Made by a program: the position numbers and the translations under genes. 64,000 bases of DNA from NCBI GenBank assembly GCA_003280345.1, contig QCFB01000003.1, forward strand, positions 1 through 64,000. The letters are read 5' to 3'. The notes below the pieces were generated by a model. It was not told the DNA's origin. It did no database searches and worked only from the letters and a program-made list of their open reading frames with translations. Source of the stretch: Prochlorococcus sp. AG-363-A16. GTDB lineage: Bacteria > Cyanobacteriota > Cyanobacteriia > PCC-6307 > Cyanobiaceae. Below are positions 13,169 to 62,370 of this stretch, piece after piece (position 1 is the stretch's first letter; each line of letters starts with the position of its first letter).

Positions 13169-13228
13169 CTAGCAACTAAAAGCTCTTGAAAGACCAAAAT
13201 TGTTTTTTCAAGAGCTTTTAGTTGCTAG
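13169..13228. terminator. 23-bp perfect hairpin downstream of petH
   Basis: The arm at 13169-13191 pairs without mismatch with 13206-13228 around a 14-nt loop. It begins 21 bp after the petH stop. It lacks a downstream T-tract, so it may work as an mRNA 3' stabiliser or processing site rather than as a simple terminator. It separates petH from zwf. Confidence 0.6.
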
Positions 13229-34552: not shown

Positions 34553-34611
34553 GTGAGAGTTTCGGCTCCCACACTCCTCACACCACCAGCCCGACGAGCT
34601 CGGGCTTTTTG
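34553..34611 (+). ncRNA. yfr1: Yfr1 small regulatory RNA
   Basis: Trans-acting sRNA of cyanobacteria. The sequence shows a 5' hairpin (GTGAGAG at 34553-34559 with CTCCCAC at 34566-34572, one mismatch), the family's invariant unpaired motif ACTCCTCACAC (34573-34583) and a 3' terminator hairpin (AGCCCGA/TCGGGCT, 34588-34606) ending in T5. The guaB-Yfr1-trxA setting is also the known one. In Prochlorococcus the motif pairs with mRNAs, including those of porins. Confidence 0.95.
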
Positions 34612-58663: not shown

Positions 58664-59707
58664 ATGACAGCTACTGCTACTACACCCAAAATGAGAGGAG
58701 CTGGAAGAAATGAGCTTCCTCCTCACCTCGACGAAAACCTTCTAACCCCACGTTTTTATACAACTGAATTCGACAAAGCAGCCAAAACAGATCTTGAGAT
58801 AGCTCGAAAAGATTTTGAGGCCATGTTCAAGGAGATGGAAAACGACTACAACCTCAAGCACTTCGACCGCAAAGCTTCTCTTGATCGACTGAATGAGCTT
58901 TCTCCTAAAGACAAATCAGTTTACGAGAGTTACCTAGTTCGCTCAGTCGTATCCGAATTTTCTGGATTTTTACTATTTAAGGAAATATCTAATCGGTTTA
59001 AGAAAGCAGGCAGACAAGAACTAGGCCAGTTTTTTCAATTTTTGGCTAGAGATGAAGCCAGGCATGCTGGTTTCCTAGGCAGAGCGTTAAAAGCCGAAGG
59101 TATAAATGTTGACCTCCCAAACTTAGGCAACAAGCGAGCAGCGACATTTTTTCCTCTTAGTTGGGTTCTCTATTCGTTATACCTTTCTGAAAAAATTGGA
59201 TATTGGCGTTACATATTGATTAATCGGCACCTAAAAGCGAATCCAGATAAGGCTTGTGCACCCTTGTTTGACTTCTTTGAACCTTGGTGTCAAGACGAAA
59301 ACCGCCATGGAGACTGCATCAACTTAATGATGCGCTGCTGGCCAGGAATGACTAAAGGTTTCAGGGGAAAAATGCTTAGTCGTTTTTTCCTTTGGACCGT
59401 TTTCCTTACCCACACACTAACTGTTTGCGAGAGAGGAGATTTTTATGAAATGTTAGGCATAGACCCTGTGCTTTTTGATGAAGAGGTAATCATCCAAACA
59501 AATAACACTTCTCGAAACGCATTCCCTTGGGTTTATAAGTTTAATGATGGCAAGTTCCTCGAAATGCGAATTCAAATCTTAACTGCATTCCGCAAATGGA
59601 GAGATAGCTCTGGCTTTTCTAAACCATTAGCTCTAGGCAAATTCATCTCACTAATGCTTAAGCAATTTGCATTACCAATGGAAAAGACCAATGCTGTGCG
59701 TTATTGA
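58664..59707 (+). CDS. acsF: Mg-protoporphyrin IX monomethyl ester oxidative cyclase
   Basis: The aerobic diiron enzyme that forms the isocyclic E ring of chlorophyll. The 347-residue protein shows the diiron ligands in RDEARHAGFLGRAL and DENRHGD, with an upstream Glu helix (VRSVVSEFSGFLLFKEI). The length matches the family. The product requires O2 and reducing equivalents. The convergent ferredoxin and ycf54 homologue downstream suggest a local module for this step. Confidence 0.95.
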   Translation: MTATATTPKMRGAGRNELPPHLDENLLTPRFYTTEFDKAAKTDLEIARKDFEAMFKEMENDYNLKHFDRKASLDRLNELSPKDKSVYESYLVRSVVSEFSGFLLFKEISNRFKKAGRQELGQFFQFLARDEARHAGFLGRALKAEGINVDLPNLGNKRAATFFPLSWVLYSLYLSEKIGYWRYILINRHLKANPDKACAPLFDFFEPWCQDENRHGDCINLMMRCWPGMTKGFRGKMLSRFFLWTVFLTHTLTVCERGDFYEMLGIDPVLFDEEVIIQTNNTSRNAFPWVYKFNDGKFLEMRIQILTAFRKWRDSSGFSKPLALGKFISLMLKQFALPMEKTNAVRY

Positions 59708-60625: not shown

Positions 60626-60801
60626 AGAGAAGAGGTCTGATTTAAATCCTCAAATACAAATTATAGTCAATTTAATGCTATATCAATCAAATTACTAGAA
60701 AGATAATTCCTACGTTGAAGCTATCGAAGGAGCCTAAAAAGTTTTTATTAATTCGAACTTGACTCAAAAGGGAAAAAAAATAGTAATGATGTTAAACAAA
60801 A

Positions 60802-60829
60802 AAAGGCGATGATTTAAATCACCGCCTTT
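60802..60829 (-). terminator. Terminator of the barrel-protein gene
   Basis: AAAGGCG (60802-60808) pairs with CGCCTTT (60823-60829); the internal palindrome GATTTAAATC extends the stem. Read on the minus strand it ends in a run of seven T, placed 21 bp after the stop of the outer-membrane protein gene. Confidence 0.8.
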
Positions 60830-60849
60830 CTTTTTGTTTATTGAGTGAA

Positions 60850-61521
60850 TCAGAAAAGGAGTCTTATTCCAAGTTGACCTTTAACTGCGCTCATTCCATC
60901 AAAATCCTTATGACCTAAATAAGTATCAGAGACAATACTGTGGTAACTGACTTCACCAAAAAGATCAGTGTTATGCCACATAGGATATGAAAGACCTGTT
61001 TTGACTATCCAAGTTTGGGTGCTGTCTTCCTGTGGTCCAGTTTTTGGCTGAGATGTACCTGCATGATGAACTGCGTCAGTACTCAAAGTGGAATACCCCC
61101 ATCCGGCGCCAACGTAAGGGACAATCTGACCTCCTAGAAGTTCAGGCATGTCGTAATAAGCATTGATCATGTATGAACTTGCGTTCACATTGTTAATGTC
61201 AAAATATGGATGGCTTGTATCTTCAAGCCAGAAAGAAGTTTGGCTATAAGAAATTTCAGTCCTTAGGTTCTCATTTACACGATAACCAAGTCCAATTTCA
61301 CCATTTATGACGTTGTCTGTATCCAAACTTTTGTCTAGTGTTCCCGTTTCTTTGAAATTTATTTCATCCATAGCTAAAGCTGAACCAGCGCCAATAGATG
61401 CATAGAAACCAGAGGAATCTTCACCTGCTTTAACTGGTGAAATATCAGCAAGGCCAGGAGTGGCAATTGCAGAAAAAGCAAGTCCTGCTGCAAGCAAGGT
61501 TGACTTGAGATTAACGCCCAT
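60850..61521 (-). CDS. Outer-membrane beta-barrel protein (OmpW/surface antigen-like)
   Basis: From ATG 61521 the 223-residue protein has a Sec signal peptide (STLLAAGLAFSAIATPGLA) and an eight-stranded barrel pattern: FYASIGAGSALA, GEIGLGYRVNENLRTEISY, SYMINAYYDMP, IVPYVGAGWGYSTL, TWIVKTGLSYPMW, FGEVSYHSIV and the C-terminal VKGQLGIRLLF with terminal Phe. The frame is open to 61584, but the inner start gives a normal signal peptide. Confidence 0.85.
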   Translation of the reverse strand: MGVNLKSTLLAAGLAFSAIATPGLADISPVKAGEDSSGFYASIGAGSALAMDEINFKETGTLDKSLDTDNVINGEIGLGYRVNENLRTEISYSQTSFWLEDTSHPYFDINNVNASSYMINAYYDMPELLGGQIVPYVGAGWGYSTLSTDAVHHAGTSQPKTGPQEDSTQTWIVKTGLSYPMWHNTDLFGEVSYHSIVSDTYLGHKDFDGMSAVKGQLGIRLLF

Positions 61522-62109
61522 TTTATGCAGAAAATGCAAATTTTTACTGAGTTTAAATGATATAGTCTTTCTAGCTGATATCAATTCGAAATTAACCGCT
61601 TCCTAGATTGGCATACGATCACGCAGTGAATGTGCGTGGGTCAGGCGGTTTTTTCTATTTCTTAAATTAGAAGAAAAATATAAAGTATTAAAAAAGCATT
61701 AAAGTTATTTCAAGCTAAAAGAAAAAGTGTATTTTGAGCAGCGATTAGGCCAATCAAGACGCTATCCATCTATTAGGCAAAGGCAAAGAATCTGAATTAT
61801 TAGTTTTTTTCTTCAAAGCAACGCTCAAAGGAACTAGTAAAAATTTAAAAGCCCAGCTTTCTCAACAGTAGGTTTTTTAATAGGTTATAGCAAAATATTG
61901 GCTAAGTTTAACTGATCTTGCTCCCACACTGTTTTACCAAAGTAATACTTACTTAAAATTCTCAAACAAGCTTGAGTAGGTGAGGTAGTTCAATTTGTAG
62001 CTAATGGAGCTCGAAAACATTAAAGAATTTCTTTTTCGCACATAAGGTATTGATTTAATAAGTTTAAGTGTGATCCTTTGGGATGTATGCCTAATCAAAA
62101 AACAAATTT
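61522..62109. other. 588-bp intergenic region with a candidate small RNA
   Basis: No gene above 20 residues is convincing. The left part carries a candidate + strand small RNA (about 61573-61655). The rest is AT-rich and contains short inverted repeats such as CTCAA/TTGAG (61961-61976). Confidence 0.4.
61573..61655 (+). ncRNA. Candidate small RNA with nested terminator hairpin
   Basis: A TATAGT box at 61561-61566 would place a 5' end near 61573. AACCGC (61594-61599) pairs with GCGGTT (61645-61650); inside, CACGCA (61620-61625) pairs with TGCGTG (61633-61638), and the outer stem ends in T6 (61649-61654). There is no + strand gene upstream that would need this terminator. Confidence 0.45.
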
Positions 62110-62370
62110 ATGGCTGCCTTCCCAAAAAACCTATTCAATCCAAATGGTTTCTTATCAAGCTATCTTTTAGATCTAATCAATAATGAAGGCCAAGCAAAAA
62201 ATGAGGAAACGGCCTTAAGCCTCTCTACAAATGCCTCACAAGATATTTTGGAGTCGGAAGGAATTGATAATGTCACAAGCGTTTCTGAAGCCAATGAAGA
62301 AACAACAGATGATCTAGAAAAATGCACTGTTCTAGAAATCAATCCTGATATTGAGCAAAATGCTGCCTAA
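62110..62370 (+). CDS. Acidic small protein, unknown
   Basis: The 86-residue protein starts MAAFPKNLFNPNGFLSSYLL and continues with an acidic, probably disordered part (EESEGIDN-type and EETTDDLEK segments). No signal peptide or membrane segment. It is convergent with pcb. Confidence 0.6.
   Translation: MAAFPKNLFNPNGFLSSYLLDLINNEGQAKNEETALSLSTNASQDILESEGIDNVTSVSEANEETTDDLEKCTVLEINPDIEQNAA

Follow-up and report, generated by a model that had tools for sequence, protein, structure and literature searches.

What stops at a transcription terminator into which no protein-coding gene appears to read? The question is raised by the intergenic DNA that lies upstream of an outer-membrane beta-barrel gene in the window, i.e., the whole 64,000-nucleotide stretch of Prochlorococcus sp. 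AG-363-A16 that was analyzed. The DNA is cyanobacterial, of Prochlorococcus kind, with a GC content of 39.7%; its assembly comprises 1.74 Mb in 47 contigs and its family is one of small genomes with many pcb antenna genes. An earlier note had proposed an unannotated small RNA on the + strand, beginning after a -10-like hexamer and ending in a nested hairpin with six Ts. The motifs are indeed found where it placed them, but its statements on the fold, the T-run, the promoter and the upstream genes needed correction; the sequence gives good support to a + strand terminator that serves no protein-coding gene, while the promoter is the weak half of the proposal. It is considered probable that a discrete, short, non-coding and lineage-specific RNA of ~80 nt is made from the + strand, the candidate spanning 61573-61655 with its start placed from the -10 hexamer and its end from the T-run.

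The hairpin is the stronger half. All four arms that had been described are present, namely AACCGC (61594-61599) and GCGGTT (61645-61650) for the outer stem and CACGCA (61620-61625) and TGCGTG (61633-61638) for the inner one, but the nesting as drawn, at only -12.6 kcal/mol, is not the preferred fold. The minimum-energy structure is an irregular rod of -21.4 kcal/mol closed by the same outer stem, and pairing probabilities are 0.59-1.0 in this stem and 0.05-0.32 in the inner CACGCA/TGCGTG stem. A branched alternative, in which most of the inner stem is kept, falls 1.1 kcal/mol short of the rod in stability. Likewise, TTTTTT does occupy 61649-61654, although two of its six Ts are inside the outer stem, so that the free tail is TTTT-C-T. 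In sequence, intrinsic terminators are characterized by a stable, G+C-containing hairpin with a T tract right behind it, and the element at 61594-61654 (+) is an intrinsic (Rho-independent) terminator-like element at which termination is predicted.

When every T tract on both strands was scanned, this element proved to be the strongest intergenic site of the window combining a hairpin with a T-run (-21.3 kcal/mol); the two sites of lower energy are both located within genes. When the whole intergenic DNA (11.2 kb, both strands) was shuffled 300 times with dinucleotide composition preserved, 2.3% of the shuffles produced a site of equal strength, a figure that is optimistic for a feature selected by a reader out of many, and the z-score of the 61-nt hairpin is -2.78. 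The element is absent from the list of a simple terminator scan because that scan demands a short loop and an uninterrupted stem. It is oriented along the + strand, since the reverse complement folds clearly worse (-15.7 vs. -21.8 kcal/mol) and has no T tract. Elsewhere in the window, a long symmetric hairpin at 13181-13216 is flanked on either side by A and T tracts (-18.3 kcal/mol on the + strand and -15.9 on the - strand) and is likely a bidirectional terminator.

The claim that no + strand gene lies upstream is true locally, but acsF, 1.85 kb away, ends at 59707, and another hairpin (60793-60840) stands between the two. This second hairpin, A/T-flanked and 88% self-complementary over 50 nt, is flagged by terminator scans on the minus strand only; it resembles a terminator of the beta-barrel gene and, by eye, might stop + strand transcription as well. 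That the terminator has no other protein-coding client is well supported: the neighbors beyond the hairpin either point away or are 1.85 kb distant, the + strand gene downstream has a leader of its own, and pcb, on the minus strand, has its own terminator at 62472-62448.

Regarding the promoter, TATAGT is present on the + strand at 61561-61566 and ranks in the top 0.17% of positions as a -10 hexamer. The distance also agrees with the earlier estimate of about 80 nt, with ~82 nt between the inferred start (~61573) and the end of the T-run. However, the hexamer alone is weak evidence, because such motifs are frequent in the intergenic DNA (8 TATAGT and 31 TATANT in 10.7 kb, both strands), because no -35 element accompanies it (score -5.2, the total promoter score being matched or beaten at 6.6% of positions) and because the same bases take part in a much better promoter on the minus strand. 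The latter, TTGATA-16-TATCAT (61557-61584, -), has a score reached by ~0.0016% of window positions, is predicted to start transcription at ~61550 and faces the divergent beta-barrel gene (60850-61521, -; start codon at 61521), which encodes a 223-aa outer-membrane protein (PF13505, E 2.5e-13). Its TATCAT (61562-61557) overlaps TATAGT so that the central TA is common to both, the pair of hexamers reading ATGATATAGT at 61557-61566, with promoter activity on either strand predicted from these motifs. Most likely, the -10 hexamer belongs first to the outer-membrane gene, and for the small RNA it would act only as the opposite side of a promoter working in both directions. Applying the usual 7-bp distance to the two -10 elements places the starts at 61573 and 61550, 23 bp apart and within the 7-25 bp criterion for bidirectional promoters, although this geometry is drawn from the sequence and the starts themselves are predictions. 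In E. coli, the commonest start spacing of such promoters is 18 bp, and spacings of 10 and 23 bp are common too (PMC12825309). The overlapping geometry is no proof by itself, since six double -10 elements with at least 5/6 matches per strand occur in the window.

No trace of the element was recovered from relatives. Rfam yielded no match to it at gathering or relaxed thresholds, and BLAST returned only short chance matches beyond its own locus, whether run against 60 relatives, against the single genome of the genus or against 400 genomes of the family. An 18-mer of the candidate occurs twice in one genome (G195), inside a repetitive stretch that by eye looks like repeat-protein coding sequence. 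A single-sequence covariance model (Infernal with stricter filters) detected no credible homologue among the 400 family genomes; its sole match, with an E-value of 0.047 per genome, is at chance level over 400 genomes, has coding-like flanks by eye and was rejected. Exact-pattern scans of ~85,000 species genomes hit five unrelated bacteria, with no cyanobacterium and no homologue among them, and the candidate was not found in viral contigs. While the order acsF, ferredoxin, 110-aa gene and pcb is recognizable in three relatives (G080, G075, and G018), both the beta-barrel gene and the candidate are missing there from the locus. The beta-barrel gene, which sits between the 110-aa gene and pcb and whose protein has relatives of at most 42% identity, with no relative found in a pattern scan of the species-genome collection, looks from these comparisons like a lineage-specific insertion or a very fast-evolving gene. 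The regions upstream of 29 homologues of its protein, read by eye, contain no similar element. Because of this absence from syntenic relatives, the low identity of the barrel relatives and the lack of anything similar upstream of the 29 homologues, gene and candidate together give the impression of a unit specific to this lineage. What is observed is the terminator-like element with its strand, its neighborhood and its absence from relatives; the start site, the sharing of the promoter and the existence of the RNA are what we infer from the motifs.

In the RNA as predicted, open reading frames extend over at most ~20 codons, from a TTG, and none is credible in the frames read. RNA polymerase would start at ~61573 from the + side of a pseudo-symmetric promoter, the stronger minus side of which would drive the outer-membrane gene, and the enzyme would halt at the terminator at 61594-61654, giving an RNA with an unpaired 5′ tail of ~20 nt (61573-61593, +; predicted unpaired with the exception of a weak GAAA/UUUC closing helix) followed by a stable terminator hairpin. 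If the RNA were regulatory, this tail would be its pairing part. That it is a trans-acting regulator is possible but less likely than not, and a further reading, that a trans-acting, lineage-specific RNA is coupled through the bidirectional promoter to the beta-barrel gene, so that the ratio of protein to regulator is fixed or their synthesis mutually exclusive, is considered quite improbable. When targets were predicted among the sequences of the window from duplex energy and accessibility, none was convincing (best net energy -2.4 kcal/mol), the beta-barrel mRNA ranking 22nd out of 56, and no net pairing was predicted with the Yfr1 of the window.

The main rival, somewhat short of an even chance, is that the terminator does no more than cut short pointless divergent transcription from the barrel promoter, shielding the + strand gene downstream, and that the RNA is a by-product with no regulatory function. 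This would agree with the better promoter being on the minus strand, with the lack of conservation of the candidate and of a convincing target in the window, and with the fact that bacterial promoters commonly yield non-coding RNAs in the divergent direction (PMC10268837). However, so strong a hairpin exceeds any obvious need for containment, and the RNA would exist anyway and could act; as the short RNA is part of both readings, they overlap. It is less probable, and on balance unlikely, that hairpin and -10-like hexamer have nothing to do with each other and that no RNA is made. The frequency of -10-like hexamers and the absence of conservation speak for such a coincidence, and a window-wide chance of 2.3% is modest for a feature chosen by eye, but strength, strand polarity, T-run and a position facing the promoter would all have to coincide.

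Far less probable is a role of the hairpin as 5′-leader attenuator, where transcription from 61573 would either stop at the hairpin or read into the next + strand gene (62110-62370), which has the same orientation and lies 459 nt further on. The two folds of near-equal energy could have suggested such a switch, but they are not a terminator/antiterminator pair, because both keep the outer stem of the terminator. Moreover, a proximal leader (62048-62107) belongs to the downstream gene itself; a 61-nt match to it in G010, a relative, shows 74% identity, and neither the hairpin nor a beta-barrel gene was found upstream there. As a non-coding element, this 61-nt leader is better conserved than the candidate small RNA; the gene behind it encodes a small 86-aa protein without Pfam match, 32% identical to its relative in G010. 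Least probable of all is that the structure belongs to the 5′ leader of the outer-membrane mRNA. The hairpin does sit a short way ahead of that gene, but transcription from the best minus promoter would begin downstream of the hairpin, and the minus strand folds worse (-15.7 kcal/mol).

The simplest reading is a short transcript, because a + strand terminator is seen that appears to have no protein-coding client. Hairpin strength, strand polarity, the clientless terminator, the good -10 hexamer, the divergent starts 23 bp apart and the small RNAs known from Prochlorococcus were counted in its favor; the + promoter lacking a -35, the missing homologues, the six -10 pairs and the want of a convincing target in the window were counted against it.

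With regard to known systems, the cyanobacterial small RNA Yfr1 (RF01116), which targets porin mRNAs, is likewise short and terminator-ended. An outer-membrane protein gene is involved here too, but only as a neighbor of the candidate, in which comparison with Yfr1 and other Rfam families revealed no Yfr1 motif and no covariance-model match; the window has a Yfr1 of its own at 34553-34608 (+; RF01116, 58.2 bits). The overlap of opposite-strand -10 elements, with predicted starts 23 bp apart, is like that in the bacterial bidirectional promoters of Warman, Grainger and colleagues, which are defined by mapped starts whereas those of the candidate are predicted. If transcribed, the locus would be a compact case of a small RNA and an outer-membrane gene on one symmetric promoter, and would add one more lineage-specific small RNA to the repertoire of a cyanobacterial group that is streamlined and has few protein regulators, leaving general understanding unchanged. 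Even if real, the candidate would be unsurprising, because clade- and strain-specific small RNAs are common in Prochlorococcus and ones of such size are documented there, namely Yfr8-Yfr21, Yfr28, Yfr29, and Yfr106-108 (PMC2518516; PMC7368042); Yfr28 is 72 nt long, several others are 76-89 nt, and Yfr29 is reported in MED4 only (PMC2518516; PMC7368042). These were detected by Northern blotting or RACE, whereas the candidate is known from its sequence. It resembles them in size, intergenic position and narrow distribution, a likeness drawn by description, the candidate itself having been searched against the family genomes. It is plausible that this ordinary orphan small-RNA candidate is a further member of the lineage-specific small RNAs of Prochlorococcus.
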